DNA of 64,000 nt from Bacteroidota bacterium (GCA_027484685.1 JAIXSO010000011.1:1-64000), one strand, 5' to 3'. Positions 455-16,902 are shown, numbered from the stretch's first letter. Notes: generated by a model not told the origin, from the sequence alone. Program-made: numbers and translations.

Positions 455-1852
455 ATGAGAATTACCAGCGCTTTATTGTTATTTTTAACGTTTGCCATTA
501 GTTGTTCAGAAAATGCTCCTAAACAAACTGAAGCATCAGAAAATGTATTTACTACTCAAAATTTACCTATACAAGTTTTTGAAATCAACAACCAAAACGA
601 CACCTTTATTACAGGTAAAAACGGAACTAAAATTAGCATCCCCAAAAATAGTTTTGTAGATAAAAACGGTAATGCTGTTACAGGTAAAATAAGCTTTGAA
701 CTAAAAGAAGCTTTAACATTAGCCGATATGGTTATGGGCAATTTAACCACTTTAAGCAATGGTAAAATATTACAAACCGGTGGTATGATTTACACCAATG
801 CTACTGCAAATGGAGAAAACCTATTGATAGCTACCAATAAAGCGTTGCAAATATCGATTCCAACCGACAATAAAAACGATAGCATGTTGATTTTTGAAGG
901 AGAAGTTAATCCTAAAAACCAAAGCATCAATTGGGTGAATCCAAAGGATATTATTGAAAAAAATAAACCAACCGTTGTTTCCAAAACCATAAGTCGCCCT
1001 ACTTTTGATGAACATAAAAACATGGAACTTCCATTATTAGAAGTACCTAAAAAACCAATTGAATACACTGATGATAATACTGAAAGGATATTGAGTATAA
1101 AATTTGAAACAAATACCATGTTTCCTGAACTGCAACAATATAAAAATGTAAAGTTTAAGGTAACTGAAAAAAGCGACTTTAACCTAGAGGATGCAAAAAA
1201 GACTTGGTACGATGTAAAACTTGAAAAAACCAATGAAGCAGGTATTTATAAAGTAACATTTGAAGGAGTTGATAAAGGTAAAGTTATTACAAGGAAATAC
1301 TTAGTTTCTCCTGCTTATCAAGGCAATGATTATAAAAAAGCATTGGCCTTATATGAACAAAAATTTGAACAATACGAAAAGAAAAAGAAAGAAATAGAGG
1401 AAAGAAAACAAATTTTATTTGATGCGGTAAAATATAGTAACAAACATGAAACAGACCCACAGTTAACTTATGTGTATAGCATTAAAAGTTTAGGTTGGTC
1501 AAATATTGATAGATATGCTTATTTACCTAAAAACAATTTAGAAATTACAGTTCAAATTGATAATAAAAATAATGACGAACATGTATATATTTCTTTAATT
1601 GTTTTAAAAGATAAATTTTTTATTCCCGGTTACGAAAAGAAAGATGGCACTTATGGTTTTTCGCATAACGATTCAGAACCAACCAATTTACCTGTTGGTG
1701 AAGAAGCCATTATTTTAGCTACTACTTATCGATACAATATTCCTTATTTTGCTTTTCAAAAAATTATTATTGCTCCAAAACAAAACATCAACTTAAGTTT
1801 GAAAGAAACCACCAAACTAAAGCTGGAAGCATACTTAAAAGAAAATATTTAA
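455..1852 (+). CDS. lipoprotein, paralogue of the 61641-63494 product
   Basis: The product is 465 residues. It has a lipoprotein signal peptide with the lipid-acceptor Cys at 17 (FAISC), so it should be membrane-anchored outside the cytoplasm. Residues about 40-165 are clearly homologous to the protein encoded at 61641-63494: both share FEIN, the KNGT/EDGT and PKNSF/PKGCF turns, LSNLTT/MGNLTT, GMIY.NATANG and IPT. The rest is weakly similar; residues about 295-325 are rich in E and K and may form a coiled coil. The function is unknown. The stop codon directly abuts the next start, so it is probably the first gene of the MoxR-vWA operon, although it could simply be cotranscribed. Confidence 0.85.
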   Translation: MRITSALLLFLTFAISCSENAPKQTEASENVFTTQNLPIQVFEINNQNDTFITGKNGTKISIPKNSFVDKNGNAVTGKISFELKEALTLADMVMGNLTTLSNGKILQTGGMIYTNATANGENLLIATNKALQISIPTDNKNDSMLIFEGEVNPKNQSINWVNPKDIIEKNKPTVVSKTISRPTFDEHKNMELPLLEVPKKPIEYTDDNTERILSIKFETNTMFPELQQYKNVKFKVTEKSDFNLEDAKKTWYDVKLEKTNEAGIYKVTFEGVDKGKVITRKYLVSPAYQGNDYKKALALYEQKFEQYEKKKKEIEERKQILFDAVKYSNKHETDPQLTYVYSIKSLGWSNIDRYAYLPKNNLEITVQIDNKNNDEHVYISLIVLKDKFFIPGYEKKDGTYGFSHNDSEPTNLPVGEEAIILATTYRYNIPYFAFQKIIIAPKQNINLSLKETTKLKLEAYLKENI

Positions 1853-2497
1853 ATGACCGAAAACTATTTTTATAAAGTAATACATAACTTAAGGCAATAC
1901 GAAGAAGTGATGCTTTATGCCAATGTGCTTACTTTTAACAAGGAAGAAGAAGAAAAAGTAATGGCTTTTTTAGCACAAGAGTATGAAGTAGAAAGCCTTA
2001 ACTATGCTATAAATGCGCCAAGCTTTAATGCAGAAGCGGCACTTTGGGCTGCTAAAACAGTTTATTTGGCTGCGCAATTAATTTTATACAGGCAAAACAA
2101 AGAACACGATTTAGCCAACATGTTTCCAAATTACCATTTGGAAATAGACAGTAGCGCCATTGTTTCAGTCGATTTATGCTTGCGTTTTTTACCCGATATG
2201 CTGCTGCAATTAAACATCATTGATAACGAAGATGTGTTGATTGAAATATTAGAAACCATATTGGTAAATTGGCCTTATTCAAGCATAAAACACACCATGA
2301 CCAACAAAGCGTTGAATTTTGATAAAATATTAACAAATAAATGCACTGAAATATTATTAATTAATCGCATTATTGAAAATAAAAGAATTGACTTAGCTTT
2401 ATTACCACAAATTAAACCTTTGGTATCGGGTAGCTTAGGTTTTTTTGCCAGTAAGTTTTGGAACGAATTTAACATAGAAAAAACTATTAATGAGTAA
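1853..2497 (+). CDS. helical protein of the MoxR-vWA operon, unknown function
   Basis: The product is 214 residues, with no signal peptide and no membrane segment. It looks all-helical and leucine-rich and I do not recognise a family. The start ATG follows the upstream TAA without a gap, and the 3' end overlaps the MoxR gene by 8 bases, so it is translationally coupled on both sides. That position suggests an accessory subunit of the downstream ATPase system. It is well placed to be one of the small variable components that accompany MoxR-vWA-bpX modules, but this is inference from position only. Confidence 0.8.
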   Translation: MTENYFYKVIHNLRQYEEVMLYANVLTFNKEEEEKVMAFLAQEYEVESLNYAINAPSFNAEAALWAAKTVYLAAQLILYRQNKEHDLANMFPNYHLEIDSSAIVSVDLCLRFLPDMLLQLNIIDNEDVLIEILETILVNWPYSSIKHTMTNKALNFDKILTNKCTEILLINRIIENKRIDLALLPQIKPLVSGSLGFFASKFWNEFNIEKTINE

Positions 2498-3620
2498 TAT
2501 AGAAAAACTAAACAACGTTCTACAGTTTGTAAAACAATCGTTTGTAGGAAAAGATGAAATTATTGATTTATTGGGAATAAGCTTAATAGCGCGCGAAAAT
2601 GCTTTTTTATTAGGACCTCCAGGAACCGCTAAAAGTGCCATTATCAGGTTACTTGCTAGCTGTATTGAAAATGGTAAAAACTTTGAATATTTGTTAACTC
2701 GCTTTACCGAACCAAACGAAATTTTTGGCCCTTTTGATATCAGGAAACTAAAGGAAGGCGAGTTAATTACCAATACCGAAGGCATGATGCCCGAAGCTTC
2801 TATGGTATTTTTAGATGAAATATTTAATGCCAACAGTGCCATTTTAAATAGTTTGCTGATGGCCTTAAATGAAAAAATATTCAGACGAGGCAAAGAAACT
2901 AAAAAACTTCCTGCATTGATGTTTGTGGGCGCTAGTAATGTTTTGCCCGAAGATGAAGCCTTAAATGCTTTATTGGATAGGTTTTTAATTAGGGTAAAAT
3001 GCGATTATGTAGAAACCGATTTGTTAGAACAAGTTTTATTAGCTGGTTGGAAATTGGAAAATAATATTGCTAATGAAATTCCAACCATAACTCCTGCCAA
3101 CATTATAGAACTGCAATTGCAAAGCAAACAAGTAAACCTTGCTCCTATTAGAAAACAATATGTTGATTTGGTACATAACCTACGCAATACAGGTATAAAA
3201 GTTTCGGATAGACGGGCAGTTAAGGTTCAAAACTTAATAGCAGCAAGTGCTTTAATGTGTAATAGAACTGAGGCCATTATAAGCGATTTATGGGTGCTTA
3301 AATACATTTGGGATACCGAAGAACAAATTGAAATTTTAGCAGGAATTATTGATTCGATAATAGAAAAAGAAAACGAGCCAAATGCTCATCCGCAGGCGCT
3401 TTACAACAAAACTCCCAATGCTGAAGAGTTAATTAAGGAAGTGCATTTACTTACCGAAAAATGGAATCAAGAAGGGCTTTCGTTTGAAGAAAAAAATATT
3501 GTAAAAGATAAACTACGTTATGTGCAAACACGCTGTAATTGGATAAAAAACCAAGAGCACAAAACACATATTCAAACCGAAATTGAAAAACTATGGCAAA
3601 CCATGTTACAAACCATGTAA
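2490..3620 (+). CDS. MoxR-family AAA+ ATPase
   Basis: The product is 376 residues. Walker A is GPPGTAKS with Lys48; Walker B is MVFLDE with Asp109-Glu110; the ASN following it marks sensor 1. The order and the ERF/TEP-type insert match the MoxR/RavA branch of AAA+ proteins, which work as chaperone-like ATPases with a vWA-domain partner. The partner here is encoded at 4338-6926. The protein is cytoplasmic. It overlaps the preceding gene by 8 bases. In MoxR-vWA-bpX ternary systems (described by the Aravind group as conflict systems) this is the motor subunit. RavA-ViaA is the alternative comparison, but the beta-propeller partners fit the ternary type better. Confidence 0.93.
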   Translation: MSNIEKLNNVLQFVKQSFVGKDEIIDLLGISLIARENAFLLGPPGTAKSAIIRLLASCIENGKNFEYLLTRFTEPNEIFGPFDIRKLKEGELITNTEGMMPEASMVFLDEIFNANSAILNSLLMALNEKIFRRGKETKKLPALMFVGASNVLPEDEALNALLDRFLIRVKCDYVETDLLEQVLLAGWKLENNIANEIPTITPANIIELQLQSKQVNLAPIRKQYVDLVHNLRNTGIKVSDRRAVKVQNLIAASALMCNRTEAIISDLWVLKYIWDTEEQIEILAGIIDSIIEKENEPNAHPQALYNKTPNAEELIKEVHLLTEKWNQEGLSFEEKNIVKDKLRYVQTRCNWIKNQEHKTHIQTEIEKLWQTMLQTM

Positions 3621-4333
3621 CCTATTATTTGCATATAAAAAGTCAGTTTAAAATTGATTTGGCCGGAATAAGGCATTGGAATAACCTAAAAGTAGGTTTT
3701 GAAAATGACGATATTTGGGTTAAAGATTTGGATTATGTGCAAATAAATTCGGTTGATGTAAAAAGTATTCCTTATAAAACTTTGTATTATGAAAATGATG
3801 GTAAATTGTTTTTAGTAAATAGTCAATTGCCTCATTGCAATGTACCAAGCTTGCTGTGGACACCCATAAACAGAGCATTTCCCATTACATTACCACCATT
3901 AAACCATAACTTATTCCAAATAAATAGTACTGCCAAAATTGAAATTATTCCAAGTAGTTTGGAGCAAGAAAGTGTAGGAATTTTAGTTGATTTATTGGTA
4001 TTAAAACAATACTTGTTAACGGCTCCTGCTATTCGGTTAAAAAACTTAAGTTGGTGTATAGTAAACCAACAAGCACTTATTTTAGGTAAACCATTTTTGC
4101 CTATTAATGGGCTATCGGTTTGGCAAACCAATAACCATTTATTGCCTAATGGCTATACATTTAATTTTAAACCTATAAGTTATGAACTAAACCGTGTTTT
4201 AAAAACTGATGCTAATTGCTATTTGCTATGGAATAGCAATGGCAACTATACCATTATTGAAAAAGAAAATTTGATGCCTTTATCAATAAGCTCGTTTAAG
4301 CAAACTGAAAATAATTTATTACAAAAAAATTAG
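3593..4333 (+). CDS. bpX-type protein of the MoxR-vWA ternary system (probably bpX0)
   Basis: The product is about 246 residues from the ATG at 3593, which overlaps the MoxR gene by 28 bases. A TTG at 3629, nine bases after the MoxR stop, would give a start MHIKSQFKIDLAG and may be the real one. The sequence is beta-rich, with repeated short strands and aromatic turns (NDDIWVKDLDY, YYENDGKLFL, SLLWTPINRAFP). It lacks catalytic motifs. Its place between MoxR and vWA genes matches the bpX0 component in these Bacteroidota operons. The exact bpX class is my recollection and is not proven here. Confidence 0.8.
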   Translation: MANHVTNHVTYYLHIKSQFKIDLAGIRHWNNLKVGFENDDIWVKDLDYVQINSVDVKSIPYKTLYYENDGKLFLVNSQLPHCNVPSLLWTPINRAFPITLPPLNHNLFQINSTAKIEIIPSSLEQESVGILVDLLVLKQYLLTAPAIRLKNLSWCIVNQQALILGKPFLPINGLSVWQTNNHLLPNGYTFNFKPISYELNRVLKTDANCYLLWNSNGNYTIIEKENLMPLSISSFKQTENNLLQKN

Positions 4334-4337
4334 TTAA

Positions 4338-6926
4338 ATGAGCGCAACTTATTTTAAAGATACCCCTGAATATTTTTGGCAATGGGAAGAAAATGGAAAC
4401 GTAATTAGTATTCCTAATGGCAGTACTATAGCCTACAGAGCTTATGTTAGCGATGTTTTAAATTATTTAACCTTACAAGGTTTACCACCGTTTGGTTCGC
4501 TGCTTTTGACTATAATAGCTACTAACGAAAATGGTTATGAAACTCTAAATACCGTAAATAGCATTATTACCAAAGCATTTAAAGAATCAAAGTTTGATGT
4601 TTTACAAAGCGGTATGTCGTTTTTAAGGCTACTTACTCAATTACCCAATGAGTATAAAAATGGTAATAAACGATTATTGCTTTTTCAAGCTATTTTTCAA
4701 GATTGCCATAATATTACTTCCACCAAAAAAGCTAAACATATTTACCATTTTATAGCCAAAACTGATTTTAGTTTTTCGAATGCTAAAAACGAAGAATTAG
4801 TGCATGTAGTAGCTAGAGACTTTAAAGTTTTTGAAGTTATTTACAAAAAACTAAATACTGTAGAGGCTATTTTAAAAGAAATGGCTTCTGTTACTGAACT
4901 GCCTCAAATAGTTGAATTAGAAAAGCCTGCCATTTCTGAAAACAATACTCAAAAAGATTATATTGATGAACTGATTGATAACCCAAAAACTTTTCATAGT
5001 GGTTCTTTAGTAAGGCGTATTTGGAGTGGGTTAAATATTCCTTTTCAAAGCGTGTTACCCAGCAAACAGCCTTTGGGCGGAATTTCAGATTTAACCAATA
5101 AAGGCGATTTTGATAAGTTACTTATTTCAGAATTTGCCAACGATGATTTGGTGTTTTTATCGCGCATTGCCAATAACGAAGCTTTGTATATTCAGCGCGA
5201 AATTCCACCTCAAAATAACCAAATGCAGCGCATTATTTTAATTGATGTGTCGCTTAAAAATTGGGGCACACCAAAAGTTATTGCATTTGCCACCATGCTT
5301 GCCATTGCAAAGCACCCAAAAAGCAATATTACATGCACAGCCTTTACCATCGGAAATTATTATAAACCTATCCATTTTGAAGATATAAATGGCGTAATTG
5401 AAGGCTTGCAAAACTTGGAAGGAAGCATTAATGCAGGCAAAGGACTTACAGCCTATTTAACCGAAAATAAACCAACTGCCGAAACTGAAATTTTTGTAAT
5501 AACTGAACCTACTACTTTAAAACAAGTAGAAATGTTAAAGGCTTTAAACGATTTTCAAAAAGAAATAACCTATATTATTCATCCTGATTCTGACGGAAAT
5601 ATTGATATTTATAAAAAACAACAAAGCAGTAAAAAACATATTCAGCATATACTTTTACCTTTAAATGATTTATGGAAAAAACAGCCTAAGCCAGTAAAAA
5701 CAGAAACGTCAAACGACTTTTACATGGAGCAAAATTTTCCATTATTGTTTGGAAAACCATCAAGAAACAATATTTATTTGAACATAGATGAAGCGTATTT
5801 TTTAGTTTCACCTGAAAAGATATTATTTAGGAAATGTAATGGTGTGGATAGTAAAAGTGGTTGGGATTTAATGGATGCAGATTTACCTTTTAAGCCTAGT
5901 CATACTGCCATTGGCGAACTAGAAAATGGGGAAATAGTCATATTTTTATTCAAACATAACACCAAAACATTTTTGATTTTAAATGTGAATACTGGTAATA
6001 AAGTTTCAAATAAAATAGATGACTGGAAACAGACTAATTATAATCGTTTTTTCTTTTTAAATAACTGTTTCTATTATTTAAATCATCATTATTTTTGGAG
6101 TATTGATGCAATTGATGGAAAAGTAGAACATGGTTTTAAAAATTTAATTGAAGAATTTAACAAATCTAATAACGAATATAAGTTAATAAACCCTGACCCC
6201 TATTCAAGTTTTAGTATTTTAAAAAATATACATAAAATACAAATAAACAAACGGAATAATTTGGTATTAAACAGCATTCATGAAATTTGTTTTTTGGAAG
6301 GTAGAGATACTATTTCTATAGATGAAAATAGTTCTAATCATTTTGAGGCAACAGCCGATAAATTGAGTGAAAATGTATTTTCGTTTTTTGAAGGAAGCAC
6401 CATAACTATTCATAAAGCAGGTTTACTTATTTTTAAAAGTAAAAATAAAACCATTCCAACTTTTTATATACCAACAATATTGTTGAATGAAATTGCGGTA
6501 GCTAGCGAAACTGAGTTTGCTGGACGCGATTATTATTATAAACAAGGAACAAAAATTACAGTAAGTGAATTTTATAAAAAATACTACACACCTTTTATTG
6601 AGCAAATATTGGGTAATACAGAACAAATCGAGGTAAGCCCTGAATATCCGGGAGGTGAGAAAGCCATGAATAAATTTATTAGCAGTGAGGTAAAATACCC
6701 GATGATGGCTTTTGAAATGAATGTTCAAGGACGCGTTTTTGTACGTTTTACAATTGATGCAACAGGTATGGTAACTAATGTGCATGTTCCTAATCCCATT
6801 CACCCACTTTTAGATGAAGAAGCTATGAGAGTAATAAAAGCCATGCCTAACTGGAAACCAGGAAAACAAGCGGGCAAACCTTGCCCAGTAGTTTACACAA
6901 TTCCCATTAACTTTAATATTAATTAG
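4338..6926 (+). CDS. vWA / beta-propeller (bpX) protein with a C-terminal TonB domain
   Basis: The product is 862 residues. Residues 1-220 are helical. Residues about 230-420 form a vWA domain whose MIDAS is degenerate: IDVSLKNWG replaces DxSxS and VITEPTT replaces the usual final TDG. Residues about 455-750 are a beta-propeller-like region with repeated strand-turn units (YLNIDEAYFLV, FFFLNNCFYYL). Residues about 765-862 are an unmistakable TonB C-terminal domain: YPGGEKAMNKF, VQGRVFVRFTID, HPLLDEEAMRVIKAMPNWKP, YTIPINF. I see no membrane anchor or signal peptide, so this domain would be cytosolic. The first three regions are what a MoxR partner in a ternary system should contain; the TonB piece is unexpected. 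It lies 4 bases after the bpX gene and 2 bases before the next. Confidence 0.9.
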   Translation: MSATYFKDTPEYFWQWEENGNVISIPNGSTIAYRAYVSDVLNYLTLQGLPPFGSLLLTIIATNENGYETLNTVNSIITKAFKESKFDVLQSGMSFLRLLTQLPNEYKNGNKRLLLFQAIFQDCHNITSTKKAKHIYHFIAKTDFSFSNAKNEELVHVVARDFKVFEVIYKKLNTVEAILKEMASVTELPQIVELEKPAISENNTQKDYIDELIDNPKTFHSGSLVRRIWSGLNIPFQSVLPSKQPLGGISDLTNKGDFDKLLISEFANDDLVFLSRIANNEALYIQREIPPQNNQMQRIILIDVSLKNWGTPKVIAFATMLAIAKHPKSNITCTAFTIGNYYKPIHFEDINGVIEGLQNLEGSINAGKGLTAYLTENKPTAETEIFVITEPTTLKQVEMLKALNDFQKEITYIIHPDSDGNIDIYKKQQSSKKHIQHILLPLNDLWKKQPKPVKTETSNDFYMEQNFPLLFGKPSRNNIYLNIDEAYFLVSPEKILFRKCNGVDSKSGWDLMDADLPFKPSHTAIGELENGEIVIFLFKHNTKTFLILNVNTGNKVSNKIDDWKQTNYNRFFFLNNCFYYLNHHYFWSIDAIDGKVEHGFKNLIEEFNKSNNEYKLINPDPYSSFSILKNIHKIQINKRNNLVLNSIHEICFLEGRDTISIDENSSNHFEATADKLSENVFSFFEGSTITIHKAGLLIFKSKNKTIPTFYIPTILLNEIAVASETEFAGRDYYYKQGTKITVSEFYKKYYTPFIEQILGNTEQIEVSPEYPGGEKAMNKFISSEVKYPMMAFEMNVQGRVFVRFTIDATGMVTNVHVPNPIHPLLDEEAMRVIKAMPNWKPGKQAGKPCPVVYTIPINFNIN

Positions 6927-6928
6927 GC

Positions 6929-8644
6929 ATGGAATTACAAATAAAATTATCGAATAAAAATAATTACCCAATTGGTGGATTTTTGGTAAAAAGTCCATTG
7001 GTAACTGATTGGTTAATGCAAATAGAATTATTGGATTTAAAACTAGAAGATATTCAAACCTTTGCCATTCCTGATAGAACACCAAACAGTGTGTGGGGTT
7101 GTTTTGTAATTTGTAACGATTTTGATTTAGACAAAATTGGTAAAAACCAACTTTGCCAAAAGGTAATTACTAACCTTTATATTCCAGAAAAAGCCATTTT
7201 ATTTCCTACTTTAAACATAGCCGAAATAGATGCTTTGTTTGAAAAAGGAAAACACATTATACATCCAGAATTTGGCTTGGTGGCACTTGGTGATAAAGTA
7301 AATTGGAAAGAATTAATAACTGTTCCAAACCAAGAAAAACTGCCTGTAATGAAGCCAAGTGCAAGTGTGTACGTTCCAAATGCTATTAAAAGTTTTCAGT
7401 TAAAACCAGTTTCTACCGAGGACATTTTAAGGCAAATGGAGGAAAAAATGTTTCCTAAAAAACAAAAAATGCCTGATGAAAAACTGAATTTATTAGAACA
7501 TTTAAAACTATTGGGTTTAAAAACATTGTTCAATTCAGTAAAAGATGGCGATGCTAAAACCACCGAAAAAAGCGGTTTATTAACTGGTATAGAAAATATT
7601 TTAGGAAAGTTATTACCAAACAGTAATAACCAAGTAATTGATAATTTACAACAAGATTTTGAAGAGCTAGAAAAACGCAACCAAGCTGCTATTGATAAAT
7701 TTTTAGAAATGCTTAAAAATAATCCTGATGAAGCCTTAAAATATGCCATTCCTTTAGATGAAAATGGTTCAAGCAGGGGCAATTTTGGCCAAGGTGAGTT
7801 TAACCTTTCCATGAGGTGGATGAGTTTATTATTTAATGATTCAGGAAATAACTCGTCAAATTATGGTGGTTCCATTGATTTGGGCGATAAATATTTTGAA
7901 TTACAAAGGCAATACAACCAAACTGCCGAAAAATTGATTGCTCAAAAAGAATATCAAAAAGCTGCATTTATTTATTTTAAATTACTTAAGAACAGTTATA
8001 AAGCAGCCGAAACACTTGAAAAAGGTGGATTTTACAGTGAAGCCGCGGCCATATTTTTAAAAAATAGTTTTAAAGAAGATGCGGCTAAATGTTACGAAAA
8101 AGGCAAGATGACCGATGAGGCTATCAAAATTTATAAAGAACTAAATAAAAATGAAAAAGTGGGTGATTTATATGCCAGTATTAACAATACAAAAGAGGCA
8201 AATATTTATTATAATTTGGTAGCAGATAATTACATAAGTAACAACCAATTTGTAAAAGCATCGGTTATTTATAAAAACAAAATGCACGATGCAAGCATAG
8301 GCCAGCAAACACTTTTAAAAGGTTGGCAAAGTAATTTAGATGCTAGTAATTGCCTAAATACTTACTTAAGTAATATTACTGACGTAAAACAAGTAGAACA
8401 AGAAATAAATAGGATTTTTAAAACCGAAATAACTAAGCAAAACAGAGAGCAATTTTTAACTGTTATTCAAACACATTTTGAAAAAGATTATCCATTTAAA
8501 GAGAATTTAAAAGAAATAGGTTACCAACTCATTGCCGAGCAAATTCCTTTTAACAAAAGCATAGTTGGCGAACTAAAAGTATTTAACCAAACCGACAAAG
8601 AACTGATGAAAGACACCATTAGGTTTAAAGTAAATAATAAGTAA
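6929..8644 (+). CDS. bpX-like N-terminus with TPR repeats, last gene of the ternary operon
   Basis: The product is 571 residues and cytoplasmic. Residues 1-140 contain short beta and helix elements (PDRTPNSVWGCFVI, YIPEKAILFPTLN, HPEFGLVAL), consistent with one of the bpX-associated families; bpX6 is my best guess. A charged middle part (150-270) precedes helical repeats from about 325 to 470, with TPR-like alternation (EYQKAAFIYFKLLKN, GFYSEAAAIFLKN, KMTDEAIKIYKEL). TPR arrays usually bind partner proteins, so this may be the target-recognition or scaffold subunit for the MoxR and vWA proteins. It is spaced 2 bases from the vWA gene. The individual domain names need a profile search. Confidence 0.85.
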   Translation: MELQIKLSNKNNYPIGGFLVKSPLVTDWLMQIELLDLKLEDIQTFAIPDRTPNSVWGCFVICNDFDLDKIGKNQLCQKVITNLYIPEKAILFPTLNIAEIDALFEKGKHIIHPEFGLVALGDKVNWKELITVPNQEKLPVMKPSASVYVPNAIKSFQLKPVSTEDILRQMEEKMFPKKQKMPDEKLNLLEHLKLLGLKTLFNSVKDGDAKTTEKSGLLTGIENILGKLLPNSNNQVIDNLQQDFEELEKRNQAAIDKFLEMLKNNPDEALKYAIPLDENGSSRGNFGQGEFNLSMRWMSLLFNDSGNNSSNYGGSIDLGDKYFELQRQYNQTAEKLIAQKEYQKAAFIYFKLLKNSYKAAETLEKGGFYSEAAAIFLKNSFKEDAAKCYEKGKMTDEAIKIYKELNKNEKVGDLYASINNTKEANIYYNLVADNYISNNQFVKASVIYKNKMHDASIGQQTLLKGWQSNLDASNCLNTYLSNITDVKQVEQEINRIFKTEITKQNREQFLTVIQTHFEKDYPFKENLKEIGYQLIAEQIPFNKSIVGELKVFNQTDKELMKDTIRFKVNNK

Positions 8645-8667
8645 GAGATGAATAACAATTAAAGATT

Positions 8668-9609
8668 TTGAAAGATAAATTTAAAACATTTTACTTAATA
8701 TCTGTGTGCTTAATTACCTTGTTTTCATGTAACAAGCGTGAAAGTAAATTTGTTGAACATAAACCAAATTATATTGATAGCATTCAAAATGCAAAACAAA
8801 TAAAAGAGCTTATTTTAAAAATTGATACCAATCTAAGTTATATGAATATAACCGATAGTTTAATTACTGGAGAGGGTTTGAGGACAATTGTAAAAGAAGT
8901 TTTCAAAATTAAAAAACCTTGGAGTAAAGCAGATTTTGATCAAAATGGGTTAACAGATATTTTAGTTATTTATAATAACGATATTTATAATTTTAGGGTA
9001 ATGTGCATATTAGATAAAGGCAATAATTATGAAGGTAAATTTATTTCCTACTCCGATTTTGACAATTACTTATTTCCTATTGTTCAAGAAAATAAAATTA
9101 AATGTTACATTTTAAATAATTACTTGAGAGCCATTATTCCAGAACAATTTAATTTAATTTATAAATTCAACGATTTTATAGAAGAAAATAAAAATCCTAC
9201 AAACTATAAAATTGAAAAAATTGAATTTACATTTCAGTCGGGCTGGGGTTTGGGCGAATACGATGATTTATACTTAACAATAGATTCAGATAGAAAGGCC
9301 AATTGGCTTTCTAAAAGATATAAAATCTCCAATAATAATAAAGTAAAAAAACAATTTAAAACAGTAATAACTAAAGATAAATACAATGAAATTATTGATT
9401 TGATTAATTATAGTGAGTTTGAAAAGGTAAATTCAGATAAATCAGCTTGTTATGATTGCAATGATGTAAGCCTCAAAATTACTTATAATAACGGCCAAAC
9501 AAAAGTAATTGATGACAATAATTTAGATGAAAAGTTTATCCTAAAAAAAATATATGATTTATTACTAGAATTGACAAAAAACCAAAAGTGGACAGAATAT
9601 AATAACTAA
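8668..9609 (+). CDS. lipoprotein, possible DUF6438-like domain
   Basis: The product is 313 residues from a TTG at 8668; no in-frame ATG lies nearby and this start gives a proper signal, LITLFSC, with Cys near 21. Residues about 85-110 carry DFDQNGLTDILVIYNND, a calcium-loop-like stretch seen in FG-GAP/VCBS-type exported proteins. The C-terminal half (IEFTFQSGWGLGEYDDLYL onward) resembles the Bacteroidota DUF6438 family; this is from memory. It probably sits in the outer or inner membrane. It follows the ternary operon by 23 bases and may be cotranscribed, but nothing ties its function to it. Confidence 0.8.
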   Translation: MKDKFKTFYLISVCLITLFSCNKRESKFVEHKPNYIDSIQNAKQIKELILKIDTNLSYMNITDSLITGEGLRTIVKEVFKIKKPWSKADFDQNGLTDILVIYNNDIYNFRVMCILDKGNNYEGKFISYSDFDNYLFPIVQENKIKCYILNNYLRAIIPEQFNLIYKFNDFIEENKNPTNYKIEKIEFTFQSGWGLGEYDDLYLTIDSDRKANWLSKRYKISNNNKVKKQFKTVITKDKYNEIIDLINYSEFEKVNSDKSACYDCNDVSLKITYNNGQTKVIDDNNLDEKFILKKIYDLLLELTKNQKWTEYNN

Positions 9610-9613
9610 ATTT

Positions 9614-10102
9614 ATGTCAGAAGTAGAAGCAAAAGAAATAGGAGTAAAAAGTGCTTTAAAAATTATACTAATAGGTTTATTGATAGCCTACTTAATTATG
9701 TCGTGGTTTTGCTCAAATGGAAACATATTAAATGGTATGCTTTGGTTTTCCGATATTAGTTTCAAATCAAACATAATAATTGGTGCATTAATTATGGTTG
9801 TAAGCGGTTACTTTATAGGTAAAAATAGCGGTAAAAAAATAATTATTGCTAACCAAAATGCTTATATTATAGGTGTTAAATCGGGTTTAAGCATTTTGTT
9901 AATTACAGCATTTTTTTCTGGTTTTAAAGGTTATTTTGAAGAAGGAATAGATAACTATGGCCACTTTACTCCCATTTATGATTACATAGTCAATCCATTT
10001 TTAAGTATTTCATTAGTTGGATTATTACCAACCATAATTTTAGGAGTAATATTTGGTTGGTTAATAAAAAAACAAAAAAATATCTTGAACAATAAAGGAT
10101 AA
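9614..10102 (+). CDS. small integral membrane protein
   Basis: The product is 162 residues with about four hydrophobic segments (residues 15-32, 50-68, 85-103 and 130-152). The protein looks internally duplicated: GVKSALKIILIG near the start and GVKSGLSILLIT in the middle are similar. No family is recognised. It starts 4 bases after the lipoprotein stop, so the two are probably cotranscribed. Confidence 0.75.
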   Translation: MSEVEAKEIGVKSALKIILIGLLIAYLIMSWFCSNGNILNGMLWFSDISFKSNIIIGALIMVVSGYFIGKNSGKKIIIANQNAYIIGVKSGLSILLITAFFSGFKGYFEEGIDNYGHFTPIYDYIVNPFLSISLVGLLPTIILGVIFGWLIKKQKNILNNKG

Positions 10103-10200
10103 TTATTTCAACTCAACAAACCATAAACTATGGTCTATCGTCCATCAACTAACAACTATCAACCATCAACTATCAACTATAAACCATAGTCTATTTTATT
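10103..10200. repeat. low-complexity accataaac/tatcaac intergenic repeat
   Basis: The stretch at 10118-10195 repeats short words such as ACTATGGTCTATCG, CATCAACTA and ACTATCAA with variation. Relatives occur at 16870-16912, 20208-20335 and 38822-38870. The outer words (accataaactatgg near 10121 and aaccatagt near 10183) are partly inverted. It has no coding potential and no constant spacer length. Confidence 0.6.
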
Positions 10201-10280
10201 ATTAAAAAAACTACTCCTTTTAAAAATAAACAAAACTAATTATCTGAAAATAAAGTCAGCAAAAGTGAATCAAAATTTGT

Positions 10281-10288
10281 TACTTTTG
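10281..10288 (+). promoter_or_regulatory. TAnnTTTG -7 box upstream of the MORN protein gene
   Basis: TACTTTTG matches the Bacteroidota -7 consensus exactly and lies 32 bases before the ATG at 10321. I cannot see a convincing TTG at the -33 position, so this is a candidate only. Confidence 0.35.
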
Positions 10289-10320
10289 AGAACAATTGCG
10301 CCTATTTTAAGTAAAAACCA

Positions 10321-13300
10321 ATGAACCTTTCTAATAAATTCTCTTTTTATAAATCACTTAAAAGTGTTATGAAAACAACTTTTTTTATGCTTTGGATTAG
10401 TCTGTTTAATCTTTTACTGCCAATGATAGCTTTTGGTCAAACAGATACCATTTATTACAACAATAAAAAAATACAGAAAGTTACCATTAAAAATAAGGAG
10501 GTAAAAACTGTTTGGGAATACTTTCATTCAGGTGCTAAAAAGGCCAAATATTTTTTGCTTCGAGATACATTAAATGGACTTTATACAAGTTGGAATGAGA
10601 AAGGAATTAAACGCTATGAAATAAATTACGAGTTAAATTTAATGGTTGGAGATATGAAAGAATACCTATCAAGCGGACTTCTTTTACATCATTATCATTA
10701 CAAAATTATTTTAGAAAATGGCACCCGACAATCGGTGCAAGATGGGGTTCAAAAGGAATACGCCAACAATGGATTATTAAGGTCGGAAATAGCTTTTAAA
10801 AATGGGAAGCAACATGGTTTAGAGGTTCAATATTATGAACAAAGTGGAATTAAACGACTTGAACATTACTTTATAAATGGATATACAATAGGTAATAGTA
10901 AAGAATGGTATGCTAACGGACAAATCATGTTTAAAGGCCAAAAAGACACCATAATGGTAAAATACCCAAACCGAAAAAAGCCAGAAATAAGTACCGTTAA
11001 TAGTGGATTTTGCGAAACTTGGTATGAAAATGGGGTGAAACAATCAGCTGGTAAATTTGTAAAAGGACAAGCCATTGGTGAGCATAAAAAATGGTTTGCT
11101 ACAGGTAAATTAGAACAAGTTCAAACCTTGCCAACTGTTAAAAAATATGGTTATTTGGAATCCTATTTTTCCAATGGTCAATTAAAAAATAAGTATCATT
11201 ATTTTTTAAAGTACGATCCGATTCAAAGGTATAACAAAACTTTTTTTGATGGGAAATATGAAACCTATGATGAAAATGGTAAGCCAGAACAATTGGGAAA
11301 TTATAAAGATGGAAAACAAGTTGGAAAATTTTACAGGTATTATGAAGGACAATTAAGCGAAGAATTTAATTATAAAAATGGTCATTTATTTGGCGAACAA
11401 TTTTCGTATTATAATAATGGTAAACCTTTGTTAATTGAAACCTATGAACCCTTTGTAGTTGAAGGCAGAGATACGACTTTAAAACACGGAATTGCAAAAC
11501 AATTTTATGAAGATGGTACACTCAGACAAACCATCAATTATAAGAAAGGTATAATGCATGGCAGCAATATTATTTATTTCCCAAATGGTAAAATAGAAAG
11601 AGAGCTATTTATGACTGGTAAAGACCAATATCAAGTTGTAAAAGAATATAACAAAGATGGAAGCATCAGTAAAAATTATGGCGTGTATGTAAATGCTAAA
11701 AATCCAAAACAAGAACCCATTTATTACCTATCGGATTTATATGATGAGAAAGGAAATTTAAGAAATCATTTTACCTATTATAATGGATTACCGCAGGGCA
11801 ACATGATTGACAAAAACGACCAAGGAAAGTTAATAGGTGAAGCCTACTTATTTGCACCAACAAAATTAGATTATTTATATCCTGGAAGTATTGAAAATGC
11901 TTGGAATGTTACCTATTACCCAACTGGTGAACTTTGCAAAGAATTTTATGGAACAAGGGGTTTTGATTTAAATATTGAGTGGTATATCAATGGCAATTTA
12001 AAGCGAATTCAACAATATAATGAATTAGATATTCAATGGTTATCGAATGGAGAATTAATGGATGCTTCTGTTTACAAAAACTATGGTAATTTAAAAGTTG
12101 ATACCATTTTGGATAAAGCATGGATAAACAATTTATATGTGCAATTTAATGCAAACTATAAACGCACCATTCAATTGGCTGAAAATCCTAATCAAGGTTA
12201 TGCAGCTAGTTATTATCATGCCAAACAAATTAAGTTTGAAACTTATATCAATAACGGAAAATTTGATAGCATTTTCAGAGGATATTATTTAGATGGATCA
12301 TTAATGGTGGAATGGCATTTAAAAAATGGATTACCACATGGCACTTACACGCTCATGAATCCCAATCAAACAATTAATACCAAACACGAATATGTGAATG
12401 GATTTAGCACAGGTGTTTGGGTTCAAAATGATAATTTTGGTGCGCCCCAAAATGAATATGGTATAGATAGCATTTTACCTAATGGAGATGTTTATAGTTG
12501 GGAAAAAGATTATCAATATGGAAAATTACAATCTTTTGTACATAAGCAAAATAAAGAGCCATATGGAATACAAACTTATTATTTTCAAAATGGAAATATT
12601 AGTTCGCAATTTTATATGAACAAAGGAAAGCAAGTGGGTGTTTCACTGAATTATTTCGAAAACGGAATAATGAACCAACGCACATATTATGATTCACTAG
12701 GAAAGCAAACTGGAGTATTTGAGCGCTACCATCAAAATGGAAAATTAAATGAAAAGTATGAATTTGAGCGTGGTAAAAAAACAGGAGCATACTACATGTG
12801 GCATTCAAATGGAAAGCTTTTTAAAACCGGATATTTTAAAAATGATATAGCCGATAGTATTTGGAATACTTACGATTCGAATGGTGTTTTTATAAATGCA
12901 TTTATTTACGAAAATGGAATAAAAAAAACTTATGGCATCAAACCAATTGTAACGCCTTGTGCATGTAGCGAACCACAATCAGATAAAAAGTATTTTGCGC
13001 AATCCTTGTCTTCATTAATGGAACGCAGAGCGCAATTTAAAACATGGGAATTTCCTTTTCATAAATCGGTTGACAAATACATTGATAAAATATTTTTTAC
13101 TCACTTGCAAGCAGACGCTGATAGAGATGGCAGCTTCTATTCCATGACTTTGGAATGTTTTCAGTCTTTAGAAATTGAATTTCCTGGTGTTTATGGAATG
13201 AAACTATTGTTGAATCCATGTTACCAAAAAGGCGATTTAACAAAAATGGAAATGTATGCAAATATTACTCAGGAAAATCCTAATGAAACAAGATTAACCA

Positions 13301-13914
13301 TTGTACCTAAAAGATTGGCGTTTGCCTTTGACCCAAAATTTTTGAGTATGCAAGGGTACGATACTATTGGGGCAAGAGGTTATTTTAAAGTTTCGGAATT
13401 AAAATATAGCATAGAAGGTATAGAATTAGAAAACATAGATTCTGTTTGTTTTTCAAAAGCACAAATAGGTAAAACTGACGTTTACCTCACTTTAAACGAG
13501 TTTATTCCTACTTTTGAAATACCAGATTATATGTATTTGTCATATTTAAAAGAAGTGTTTAAAATCGAAAAAGATGAATACAAAAAGCGATATGATAATA
13601 TAATGTACAAACCAACTATTGGTTTAAAAGAAGGAAATGGAATTTTACAATTTAAGATTGATCAACATCAAATCACCAGTAAAATTACTTATACCATTGT
13701 ATCAGGAAACATATTAATGACAACTGCAATGATTGAAAATATTAGTTTTGAAAATAATGCTGCTTGGATAAAAGATGATGAAGGAAATAATATTCAAATT
13801 TCAGAAAAAATCATTCAAACTTTATTTGCCGAAAAAGGATTTAATACAGGTAAAGTTGTGCTTGATCCAATTGCCAAATCAATGATGGTTCCACTTATTT
13901 ATCAAACCAAATAA
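10321..13914 (+). CDS. large exported MORN-variant (YwqK-like) repeat protein
   Basis: The product is up to 1197 residues. The ATG at 10369 (Met17) gives a standard signal peptide cut near AFGQT and is a likely alternative start. Residues about 30-870 hold more than fifteen MORN-variant units with the pattern YYxNGK/WYENGxxxxxGxxxxGxxxG (for example WYANGQIMFKG, YYNNGKPLLIE, WHSNGKLFKTG). The last 300 residues, beginning at CACSEPQSDKK, form a different unrecognised beta-rich domain. The protein should be periplasmic or at the cell surface. Families of this repeat are often labelled antitoxin YwqK, but that name is unsafe here. The stop overlaps the next start as TAATG, so the pair is coupled. 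Confidence 0.9.
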   Translation: MNLSNKFSFYKSLKSVMKTTFFMLWISLFNLLLPMIAFGQTDTIYYNNKKIQKVTIKNKEVKTVWEYFHSGAKKAKYFLLRDTLNGLYTSWNEKGIKRYEINYELNLMVGDMKEYLSSGLLLHHYHYKIILENGTRQSVQDGVQKEYANNGLLRSEIAFKNGKQHGLEVQYYEQSGIKRLEHYFINGYTIGNSKEWYANGQIMFKGQKDTIMVKYPNRKKPEISTVNSGFCETWYENGVKQSAGKFVKGQAIGEHKKWFATGKLEQVQTLPTVKKYGYLESYFSNGQLKNKYHYFLKYDPIQRYNKTFFDGKYETYDENGKPEQLGNYKDGKQVGKFYRYYEGQLSEEFNYKNGHLFGEQFSYYNNGKPLLIETYEPFVVEGRDTTLKHGIAKQFYEDGTLRQTINYKKGIMHGSNIIYFPNGKIERELFMTGKDQYQVVKEYNKDGSISKNYGVYVNAKNPKQEPIYYLSDLYDEKGNLRNHFTYYNGLPQGNMIDKNDQGKLIGEAYLFAPTKLDYLYPGSIENAWNVTYYPTGELCKEFYGTRGFDLNIEWYINGNLKRIQQYNELDIQWLSNGELMDASVYKNYGNLKVDTILDKAWINNLYVQFNANYKRTIQLAENPNQGYAASYYHAKQIKFETYINNGKFDSIFRGYYLDGSLMVEWHLKNGLPHGTYTLMNPNQTINTKHEYVNGFSTGVWVQNDNFGAPQNEYGIDSILPNGDVYSWEKDYQYGKLQSFVHKQNKEPYGIQTYYFQNGNISSQFYMNKGKQVGVSLNYFENGIMNQRTYYDSLGKQTGVFERYHQNGKLNEKYEFERGKKTGAYYMWHSNGKLFKTGYFKNDIADSIWNTYDSNGVFINAFIYENGIKKTYGIKPIVTPCACSEPQSDKKYFAQSLSSLMERRAQFKTWEFPFHKSVDKYIDKIFFTHLQADADRDGSFYSMTLECFQSLEIEFPGVYGMKLLLNPCYQKGDLTKMEMYANITQENPNETRLTIVPKRLAFAFDPKFLSMQGYDTIGARGYFKVSELKYSIEGIELENIDSVCFSKAQIGKTDVYLTLNEFIPTFEIPDYMYLSYLKEVFKIEKDEYKKRYDNIMYKPTIGLKEGNGILQFKIDQHQITSKITYTIVSGNILMTTAMIENISFENNAAWIKDDEGNNIQISEKIIQTLFAEKGFNTGKVVLDPIAKSMMVPLIYQTK

Positions 13915-15746
13915 TGAAACAAGTTATTCTATTTATAGGCTTGTATTGCTTTGCAATGAGTAATCTTTTAGCCGATGAACCATATACTTATTGTGACTTA
14001 AAAACCAATAAAAAATATTTGTTTATAGACAATCAAGAAGTACTTAAAAATAGTTGGCTGAATATTTTTGAAGATATTTATATCAATTATCCGGTATTGG
14101 TTACCGATTCTCAAGCTGCTCCTGTAAAAAAAATAAATTCATTGTTCCATTATTGGTGCATTGATTACATGAAAAGCGAACCATTTAAAGTAGAAATATT
14201 GGCTCATGCACAAAACAATTTTAAATCTTATTTACGTAATAGTACTGAAAATAGGTATCGGTATTCAAACTATGAATACAATAATATTTCGAAGTTTGTT
14301 CCTAAACTAAAAGATGTTGAATTTTCATTTCAGTATTTATTTGACGCCATGCTAGCTGTTCAAGTAAAATTCACTTATACATTGACAGGTGGAATCATAG
14401 ATAATGACACAAAATTTGGATTGGTAAAAATGTATTATATATCCTTAAAGAATGCACAAACAAGTAATATAACTGGTTTATTTGAACCTAGTAAAATCAA
14501 TACATTAGAGCAATTAATTCAAAATAAAACCAAAGCAATATTGGCCAAAAACCATTCATTTTTTAATGAACAAAAAGCCAAATTTGATGCGTTAGATATA
14601 TATGATGGAAATACGGAAATGGATGACGAAACTGATATTCAGCACACCACTAATCTTCAAATTTACAAAACCAAAGACATAAAACTGGCTGATTTAACCA
14701 TGAATTTGAATCCGTTTTTTGTAACATTCATGATTCCTTCTAATTCGCCTTTTACGCAACAAACCTATGGTTTTGGATTTGCAATTAGAATAAACATTTC
14801 TGAACTCAGATCCTATGTAAAAACTACAGGCTTGCTCAGCGGAATAATTAATTGGAAAATTGATCCTACCAAAAACTTGCATGATATAAATTTACATAAA
14901 TACAATTATAATCAAACAGAGTTGATTAATTGGCGCAATGATAATCCTTACCAAAAGTCGCCAGGAAAAGGTGTAAAAAGTGTTAAAACTTATATTCAAT
15001 ACCAACCTGACAGCAGTAAAAAGGTACTGAACAAGCAAACTTTTTATACCCAAATGGGGCAATTACAAAAGGAAGAATATTTTTCGAATGATAAGGTGAG
15101 TAGTTGGACTTACTATGAATATGATGTAAAAAATAGGTTGAGTAAGATAATTAATTATAGTTACAATGATATAAAAAGCAGTGATGAATTTAGTTATGAT
15201 GAAAACAATAATTTAACTGCTCAAAAAACTTTTGACCAAGAAAATAATATTACTGAAAAACGATACTTTTATATGGGCAATCAAGTTTATGAAATGCAGC
15301 TCTCCGACATCATCGACAACTCATCAAGTGACAATGAAGATGCTATCACAATCTACGAACTCAATGAAGAAGGACAAATAATCAATAGCCATAAAATTAG
15401 TCAAGCAGCTGAATACACTACGGTGTTTGATAAAGGAAAAATAATGGCCTCTTACAGTTTAAAAAGACCAAAGGATGCAAGATTGTTTACATACAACAAA
15501 AATGGGCAATTACATACAGTAGAATATGATAATAATAGGTATTTAAACCTTTATGAATACGATACAAATGGATATTTGATGCAAGAAAGTAATTACGATT
15601 CGCGAATGTTGAAAAGCAAACGAGTGATTATTAACAATGCGCAAGGATTACCTTTAACAATAAAAGAATTTACTGGCATGTATGGTTATTCCAACCACGA
15701 CAATGCTTACTATTATTCATTTGATTACGAATTTTGGAATAAATAA
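13914..15746 (+). CDS. exported protein with C-terminal RHS/YD-like repeats
   Basis: The product is 610 residues with a signal peptide (IGLYCFAMSNLLADE). Residues 30-350 show no known domain. From about 360 to 600 there are YD-like strand repeats: YYEYDVKNRLSKIINY, FSYDENNNLTAQKTF, FTYNKNGQLHTVEYD, LYEYDTNGYLMQESNY. These resemble RHS/YD repeats of exported and toxin-delivery proteins, although no RHS core or toxin tip is seen. It overlaps the MORN protein stop by one base, so the two repeat proteins are probably made in step and may share a surface location. Confidence 0.85.
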   Translation: MKQVILFIGLYCFAMSNLLADEPYTYCDLKTNKKYLFIDNQEVLKNSWLNIFEDIYINYPVLVTDSQAAPVKKINSLFHYWCIDYMKSEPFKVEILAHAQNNFKSYLRNSTENRYRYSNYEYNNISKFVPKLKDVEFSFQYLFDAMLAVQVKFTYTLTGGIIDNDTKFGLVKMYYISLKNAQTSNITGLFEPSKINTLEQLIQNKTKAILAKNHSFFNEQKAKFDALDIYDGNTEMDDETDIQHTTNLQIYKTKDIKLADLTMNLNPFFVTFMIPSNSPFTQQTYGFGFAIRINISELRSYVKTTGLLSGIINWKIDPTKNLHDINLHKYNYNQTELINWRNDNPYQKSPGKGVKSVKTYIQYQPDSSKKVLNKQTFYTQMGQLQKEEYFSNDKVSSWTYYEYDVKNRLSKIINYSYNDIKSSDEFSYDENNNLTAQKTFDQENNITEKRYFYMGNQVYEMQLSDIIDNSSSDNEDAITIYELNEEGQIINSHKISQAAEYTTVFDKGKIMASYSLKRPKDARLFTYNKNGQLHTVEYDNNRYLNLYEYDTNGYLMQESNYDSRMLKSKRVIINNAQGLPLTIKEFTGMYGYSNHDNAYYYSFDYEFWNK

Positions 15747-15773
15747 TTAGCTGCATTAATAAAATAGAATTTT

Positions 15774-16757
15774 ATGAAAAAATATGCCTCCGCTAGCTTA
15801 ATTTGGATTACACTTTTTCTTTGTTCATGCGGAATAAATAATGGTGATTTACTAAACATACCAACTCAGGTAATTTCAATTAAATCAGCACAGCATGAAA
15901 ATATTAAAGGAACAAAAATTTATGTTTTAAAGCCAAAAGGGTTTACTTATGATTTAACTTCCAACTCATTTGTTAAAACGCCAAATACTTATTTCAGAGC
16001 AGTTGAAAGCCCAACAGTTAGTTTTAATCATCAACGCACTCAGTTTTTAAGTGTAATTGAAGACCAAAAGAAACGTGGATATACCATAAACCAAATAACG
16101 GAATTTAAGCAAGGAGATTACAATGCATTGTTACTGTATGCCAATGACAATAAAAATGAACAACAGCATTTGATTTTACTGATTGGTAATGAAAACTACA
16201 GTTCAATGGTTTATTCTGAGTGTGCTATTACAAACTTAGCTGATAGGGATGAACTACTAACTATATTGTTATCTATTTGCATTGATAAATCAGAGGAAAA
16301 TGATTTATCAAAAATCCAAGATTTCATTATCGACTTGTCGCCAACCAATTTCAAAGTGAACTGTTTTCAATATGGTATGTTTTTATTTACTCCCAATGGA
16401 TTAGGAAACCCGAATGATGGTATTACAAATATGCTTCTTGTTAAAACGATAAGTCCATTAGTTAGTGATTCCTTAAAAGTAAATTTAGGTCAAAAGCTAA
16501 TTAATGATTACGTGAATGGCGGAGTTAAGGTCAATAATAAATTGGAGAACAAATATGCTAATAATGGATTAACTGGATTTGAAACTGCATTGACTGGAGA
16601 ATTTAAAGGCAAACCCATTTCAATTTACCAAATTGTTTTCGGAGACAACGAGCTAACTTACATATACTGCGGCATAGCATATGACAATATAAACAACTAT
16701 TTAACTAATTTCAAAACAATTGGAAGGTCAATTAAAAAGAAAAACTACCGCAAGTAA
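15774..16757 (+). CDS. lipoprotein of unknown function
   Basis: The product is 327 residues with a lipoprotein signal, LFLCSC, and the lipid Cys near 19. The mature part is a mixed alpha/beta protein without a family I recognise. It begins 27 bases after the YD-repeat gene and is probably the third gene of that operon. 16758-16902 is the convergent gap to the WD40 gene and contains an imperfect palindrome with TAATACCACTT and AAGTGCATTA near 16811-16838. Confidence 0.8.
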   Translation: MKKYASASLIWITLFLCSCGINNGDLLNIPTQVISIKSAQHENIKGTKIYVLKPKGFTYDLTSNSFVKTPNTYFRAVESPTVSFNHQRTQFLSVIEDQKKRGYTINQITEFKQGDYNALLLYANDNKNEQQHLILLIGNENYSSMVYSECAITNLADRDELLTILLSICIDKSEENDLSKIQDFIIDLSPTNFKVNCFQYGMFLFTPNGLGNPNDGITNMLLVKTISPLVSDSLKVNLGQKLINDYVNGGVKVNNKLENKYANNGLTGFETALTGEFKGKPISIYQIVFGDNELTYIYCGIAYDNINNYLTNFKTIGRSIKKKNYRK

Positions 16758-16902
16758 CGCCTAGATAAAAATTTAGTCTAATGTATTTTATGTTTAGTAT
16801 AATGCAATCTAATACCACTTATTGGCAAGTGCATTAACCTATTTGTAAATCGAAAAAGTATAAAGTATAGTATGTAGTTCATCTACCATGGTCTATTATC
16901 TA

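Follow-up and report, generated by a model that had tools for sequence, protein, structure and literature searches.

MoxR-vWA-beta-propeller ternary systems were defined by Kaur, Burroughs, Iyer, and Aravind (2020; Pfam families bpMoxR and bpX0–bpX4), and the conflict-system label that they carry is a proposal from comparative genomics. Here we describe a system of this class in a 64,000-nucleotide stretch of DNA from a Bacteroidota bacterium (GCA_027484685.1, JAIXSO010000011.1:1-64000; the whole stretch is called the window below), and we suggest, at a probability of roughly 0.42, that it is a RavA-like ATP-driven machine serving a response to tRNA or translation damage, in which an L12 C-terminal domain or a TonB C-terminal domain (TonB_C) would act as the recruitment module. 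The window system shares with those of Kaur et al. all five core proteins, the P-loop variant, the fusion of vWA and propeller, the TPR-containing third component, and the gene order, but it carries TonB_C in place of an L12/ClpS-like domain, and its third component lacks a membrane span. In Escherichia coli RavA–ViaA, the closest solved MoxR ATPase is likewise paired with a vWA protein but, unlike in the window system, there is no propeller, bpX protein, or TonB_C/L12 module. NorQ–NorD also joins a MoxR ring to a vWA partner but differs in its task, the insertion of metal into nitric oxide reductase. A further comparison is with tRNA arrays accompanied by RNase H and a Pol III epsilon-like exonuclease (Altae-Tran et al. 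2023, PMC10910872). RNaseH-like and exonuclease genes similarly lie beside bpX in Weeksellaceae and Flavobacterium, but the main text of that study does not connect the arrays with a bpX/MoxR-vWA-propeller operon, and no such array system is present in the window.

Positions 1853–8644 almost certainly hold a complete five-gene ternary system, in the order bpX4, bpMoxR, bpX2, vWA-propeller, and bpX3-TPR (Table 1). An initial annotation had described six close-packed genes here, of which the MoxR, vWA, and propeller parts were said to fit this class of ternary systems. All six open reading frames (ORFs) are indeed present on the plus strand, with junctions that are, in order, 0 bp, an 8-bp overlap, a 28-bp overlap, a 4-bp gap, and a 2-bp gap, and Pfam assigns the last five to named components. 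The profile searches proposed there for the bpX and MoxR families, run with Pfam, matched bpX4, bpMoxR, bpX2, bpX0/bpX1, and bpX3. The second gene, regarded as an unknown helical partner coupled to the system, proved to encode bpX4, a core domain that had been defined before. When 84,980 species genomes were scanned with an alignment of MoxR, 80 loci with flanks were obtained; with ten further loci and the window, the set comprises 91. MoxR and bpX4 each occur at 90 of these, the vWA core and bpX2 at 88, and bpX3 and TPR at 83, and the order of the five genes is nearly always the same (~85–90 of 91 loci). Some of the missing components are accounted for by short contigs and by errors in ORF picking; the rule used broke up or overlooked several core genes (such as bpX2 in L077 and MoxR in L092), so that these counts are slight underestimates. 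Because the Pfam matches have E values from 1e-19 to 1e-102 and the order of the five genes is conserved across Bacteroidota, the tight packing is not due to chance. At 51 of 87 loci, MoxR and bpX2 overlap by exactly these 28 bp, a sign that the two may be translationally coupled.

Table 1. Positions in the window of the six adjoining genes and of the fused TonB_C domain.
Feature	Position	Strand	Description
Lipoprotein gene, flanking	455..1852	+	465 aa, lipobox; no Pfam family; outside the system
bpX4, all-alpha core component	1853..2497	+	214 aa; PF19920, E 2.8e-66, full length
bpMoxR AAA+ ATPase, RavA-like	2490..3620	+	376 aa; PF20030, E 7.5e-102; Walker A GPPGTAKS, Walker B FLDE
bpX2	3593..4333	+	246 aa; PF19918, E 6.3e-70
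vWA co-chaperone (bpX0, degenerate vWA, ~4-blade propeller, bpX1, TonB_C)	4338..6926	+	862 aa; PF19915, PF19917, PF03544
TonB C-terminal domain fused to vWA protein	6627..6923	+	PF03544, 1.2e-17, aa 784-861; TIGR01352, 4.1e-12
bpX3 + TPR protein, soluble unsplit form	6929..8644	+	571 aa; PF19919, 8.1e-42

The P-loop of bpMoxR is invariant across 11 aligned homologues and fits the hallmark GXXXTAKS (PMC7159879). RavA is its closest solved ATPase by sequence match to the Protein Data Bank (PDB; E = 5e-53) and also its best NCBIfam match (1.4e-53), but the score of 182.7 bits lies below the family cut-off of 681, and we therefore regard the protein as a relative of RavA rather than as RavA. The alignment ends at residue ~301–305, leaving RavA's own C-terminal region unmatched, and no NorQ chain was found among the sequence matches at 1e-5. 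AlphaFold2 confidently predicts bpX2 (predicted local distance difference test score, pLDDT, 90) as an alpha/beta protein whose two halves look alike, with a weak ferredoxin/PII resemblance and no convincing solved relative (VIA-align Z at most 5.2); neither the bpX2 nor the bpX4 profile matched a PDB sequence. The third component of a ternary system has a variable N-terminus and TPRs (and a propeller); here, Pfam assigns bpX3 plus TPR to it.

The kinship of bpMoxR with RavA also suits a housekeeping maturation chaperone that, like RavA–ViaA or NorQ–NorD, assembles a metal or respiratory enzyme or acts on the inner membrane. RavA–ViaA act at that membrane (PMC9489729), and the bpX3/TPR component is split and membrane-anchored in some Flavobacterium and, among Weeksellaceae, in Chryseobacterium. 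In the window, however, hydropathy reveals no membrane segment or signal peptide in any core protein, the maximum over 19 residues of the third component being 0.94, versus 2.6–3.4 in the split Weeksellaceae and Flavobacterium forms. Many bona fide homologues also lack a span, which is thus a variable and not a defining trait. Moreover, the system shows no consistent linkage to a respiratory or metal-enzyme gene, and its presence is sporadic and not tied to a metabolism. A role as a maturation chaperone thus seems improbable.

How the ATPase might act is suggested by the vWA protein. Its AlphaFold2 model, built with 84 homologues, has a mean pLDDT of 86 and a predicted template modeling score of 0.50, a value that makes the arrangement of its domains uncertain. 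The domains themselves are those of the ternary systems: a helical N-terminal domain, a divergent vWA, a C-terminal propeller of about four blades, and a beta-rich C-terminal domain. Pfam matches bpX0, the helical N-terminus (3.9e-34), and bpX1 (2.1e-19), and VIA-align finds vWA/I-domain matches to residues 295–440 (Z up to 8.9) and propeller blades at ~467–613. The metal ion-dependent adhesion site is degenerate or partial, with Asp-303 invariant, position 305 either Ser or Thr, and Glu-384 present in 82 of 84 homologues. Eleven of the 19 invariant residues fall within residues 224–291, a mostly low-confidence segment directly before the vWA domain, which makes this segment a natural candidate for engaging the ATPase.

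The C-terminal end of the vWA protein carries a domain that was absent from the initial description. The top VIA-align match of the protein is the C-terminal domain of TonB bound to FoxA (6i97_D; Z 10.2, root mean square deviation 2.0 Å over 88 residues), and the domain is complete in both fold and sequence motif, covering PF03544 model positions 2–79 of 79. A TonB energy transducer has an N-terminal membrane helix and is periplasmic; by hydropathy, the vWA protein has no membrane segment, so what it carries is a TonB_C module and not a TonB protein. Since no core protein of the window has such a segment, TonB_C would be expected to lie in the cytoplasm. Among 57 vWA proteins searched with Pfam, 44 carry a ribosomal L12 C-terminal domain, a fusion already noted for several Bacteroidetes (Kaur et al. 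2020), and two have TonB_C, those of the window and of G429, a genome of the same family. The slot thus appears to be exchangeable. The nearest MoxR relatives of the window have either L12 (L080) or neither domain (L082), and G429 lies far outside the window group in the MoxR tree, its vWA protein being 24% identical; it is therefore more likely that TonB_C was gained separately in the two, within one family. A tree of the domain itself, with few columns and a long G429 branch, does not discriminate between one capture and two.

It is in the relatives, through the neighbors of the operon, that a possible function comes into view. Two or more tRNA genes occur in 30 of 40 Flavobacterium and Weeksellaceae loci, versus 1 of 42 others. 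By ARAGORN, 14 of 18 Weeksellaceae loci contain at least three and up to 16 tRNAs, which nearly always lie immediately downstream of the operon and in many loci are followed by an RNaseH-like gene (PF04308); 16 of 22 Flavobacterium-type loci contain two or more. Rfam supports the array genes as tRNAs, and the proline tRNA of the arrays is 80–100% identical between Flavobacterium and Chryseobacterium. Arrays of 5–16 tRNA genes of different specificity are seen, for example, at L148 17803–20135, L110 3275–3882, and L138 17355–18258. Some array tRNAs have irregular anticodon loops or lack T8, and the arrays are conserved between the two genera. We considered that they might be phage tRNAs and rejected this, the similarity being that of tRNAs in general.

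The protein-coding neighbors point in the same direction. In Flavobacterium, a cassette immediately upstream of the operon encodes an RLIG1-like RNA ligase, a Band-7 protein, a calcineurin-like phosphoesterase, and an RNase_T/Rv2179c-like exonuclease; in a second Flavobacterium clade the operon adjoins a gene for Endonuclease V and, in some cases, one for a T4 Rnl2-type ligase. Endonuclease V also adjoins bpX in Chitinophagales (L084) and in Glaciecola (L082). When Flavobacterium was sampled by the ligase alone, 21 of 299 genomes contained it, and the bpX core adjoined it on the same strand in 11 of 20 regions. The main text of Kaur et al. does not mention any linkage of the system to an RNA ligase, an exonuclease, or tRNA. 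Across L223–L237 (Flavobacterium), the RLIG1-like ligase, an unknown 261-residue protein, and the Band-7, phosphoesterase, and RNase_T exonuclease genes recur after a tRNA array, with or without bpX. A SWIM-like protein of 548 residues (L070 2810–4453) adjoins bpX in 11 Flavobacterium loci, and a WGR-DUF6493 protein (L073 12569–15655) does so in six.

The tRNA arrays and RNA-mending genes beside the operon in Flavobacterium and Weeksellaceae make a response to damaged tRNA or translation the most likely service of the machine. Its working could be envisaged as follows. The RavA-like bpMoxR ring would engage the vWA protein through the conserved segment of residues 224–291 and would use ATP to twist or pull the propeller/bpX1 part, as NorQ does to NorD; the template is the NorQD twisting model (PMC13036017). 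bpX2, bpX4, and bpX3-TPR would scaffold the complex, and the small exchangeable domain at the bpX1 end, usually L12 and here TonB_C, would recruit or sense a client. The client or trigger might be damaged tRNA or stalled translation, for example after the action of RNA-cleaving toxins or phage-triggered nucleases; a recruitment domain resembling the L12 stalk is consistent with a client linked to translation. In the lineage of the window, the machine may have been turned to a different client by TonB_C. The parts of this scheme differ in strength. Remodeling in the manner of RavA or NorQ is probable. A role of the bpX family in RNA or translation, proposed from the neighbors in Flavobacterium and Weeksellaceae, is tentative, and the same role for the TonB_C variant of the window is doubtful.

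Several observations weigh against this damage-response scheme. Only a single clade of the MoxR tree shows the linkage to tRNA and RNA genes, and the instances are not all independent because many Flavobacterium cassettes share one chromosomal site. Three loci (L226–L228) hold the full RNA cassette, apparently at this same site, without the bpX core. The 64 kb of the window contain neither a tRNA nor any other Rfam RNA, and no RNA-repair gene was found adjoining the operon; function is thus read from relatives, and the client of the window copy may differ. We know of no partner for a cytoplasmic TonB_C. Finally, the literature that we searched contains no experiment on any bpX system.

A more elaborate version is quite improbable, namely that bpX is the ATP-driven core of an unrecognized tRNA/translation damage response with an interchangeable bait, either an L12 stalk mimic that catches translation-directed factors or toxins or, in the lineage of the window, a cytoplasmic TonB_C that could capture incoming bacteriocins bearing a TonB box, or other clients. 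In many Flavobacteriales, this core would come packaged with spare-tRNA arrays, RNA ligases, an exonuclease, and a Band-7 scaffold.

The distribution of the system bears on the proposal of Kaur et al., who argued for a conflict system; in this account it would be an NTP-dependent abortive or containment defense against phage, in which bpX3 or the swappable domain would serve as effector or decoy. Few genomes carry the system: of 395 sampled across the phylum, 10 have bpX2, and of 64 from the window's family, two have bpX1. It also appears to move, since in the MoxR tree the window groups with the gammaproteobacterium Glaciecola (support 100/85). The complete chromosome of Glaciecola amylolytica (L082) carries a bpX system, probably by transfer from Bacteroidota, and the MoxR of this system shares 83% identity with that of the window. 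And it is lost. In G397 (L065), of the same genus, the 15 opening bases of bpX4, ATGACCGAAAACTAT, stand after the lipoprotein gene and directly abut window position 16893; the join, at a CTAT microhomology, is the scar of a 15-kb deletion that cleanly removed window 1868–16892, operon included. In G400 (L067), ~100 bp of decayed bpX4 with stops remain. The operon has thus been lost at least twice, and in part of the genus the lipoprotein-bpX4 junction represents the ancestral state. Patchiness, deletion in sister genomes, and transfer all suit a conflict system, as do reverse transcriptase and mad8-like neighbors at a few loci. Opposing it, PADLOC gave no match specific to the operon core and, for the 141 nearest neighbors, scattered defense-type genes only, with no consistent defense-island context. 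The system has no nuclease or toxin domain, and bpMoxR is absent from IMG/VR and appears in only two plasmid records. On the latter grounds, we also rejected an origin in a mobile element. A conflict system as such is possible but somewhat unlikely. It does not exclude the RNA-damage response that we prefer, because RNA repair can answer such an attack.

In the same region, the window contains a gene for a 1197-residue MORN-variant repeat protein (10321–13914) and then two further genes before the conserved right flank; all three are absent at the G397 deletion site. A strong terminator-like palindrome at 198–230 has surroundings that recur in G397 and G400 even where the flanking genes differ, and it may be a dispersed repeat. 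The Bacteroidota promoter pattern gave one site, at 298–329, which is not above chance.

The initial annotation had also made the lipoprotein a partner tying the motor to the envelope. Synteny separates its first two genes: bpX4 is kept beside MoxR, whereas the lipoprotein occurs mostly away from MoxR operons. It adjoins none of the 90 other copies of the system. A same-strand gene lies within 60 bp upstream of bpX4 at 15 of 86 loci, and only that of the window has a lipobox. Several weaker paralogues of the lipoprotein are encoded in the same genome, and relatives encode many; the orthologue is intact in G403 (L066), of the same genus, which has no operon, and is frameshifted in a poly-A run in G397. 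Adjacency at one locus of 91, membership of a paralogous family, and the intact copy in G403 rule it out as a partner. A motor of six genes coupled to the envelope, with the lipoprotein and TonB_C tying the ATPase to the outer membrane, would draw on the zero-gap junction between the lipoprotein stop and the bpX4 start, on the ancestry of that junction in part of the genus, and on the fact that TonB_C normally binds outer-membrane transporters. It is opposed, however, by the same distribution of the lipoprotein and by the vWA-TonB_C protein, which by hydropathy has neither signal peptide nor membrane helix and should thus present TonB_C to the cytoplasm. We consider such a motor very improbable.

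Two features, then, go beyond the description of the family: TonB_C on the vWA protein and, in relatives, the linkage to tRNA and RNA genes, the first suggestion of a function (although Burroughs and Aravind (2016), on RNA repair, could mention bpX). Beta-propeller ternary systems have been described as enigmatic for want of any apparent effector or function, and the RNA linkage now offers a concrete, testable hypothesis centered on tRNA and RNA repair. The client of the exchangeable slot, whether L12 or TonB_C, could be pulled down. Further, the linked form is present in many Flavobacterium and Chryseobacterium that can be cultured, and the hypothesis can therefore be tested in genetically tractable strains.

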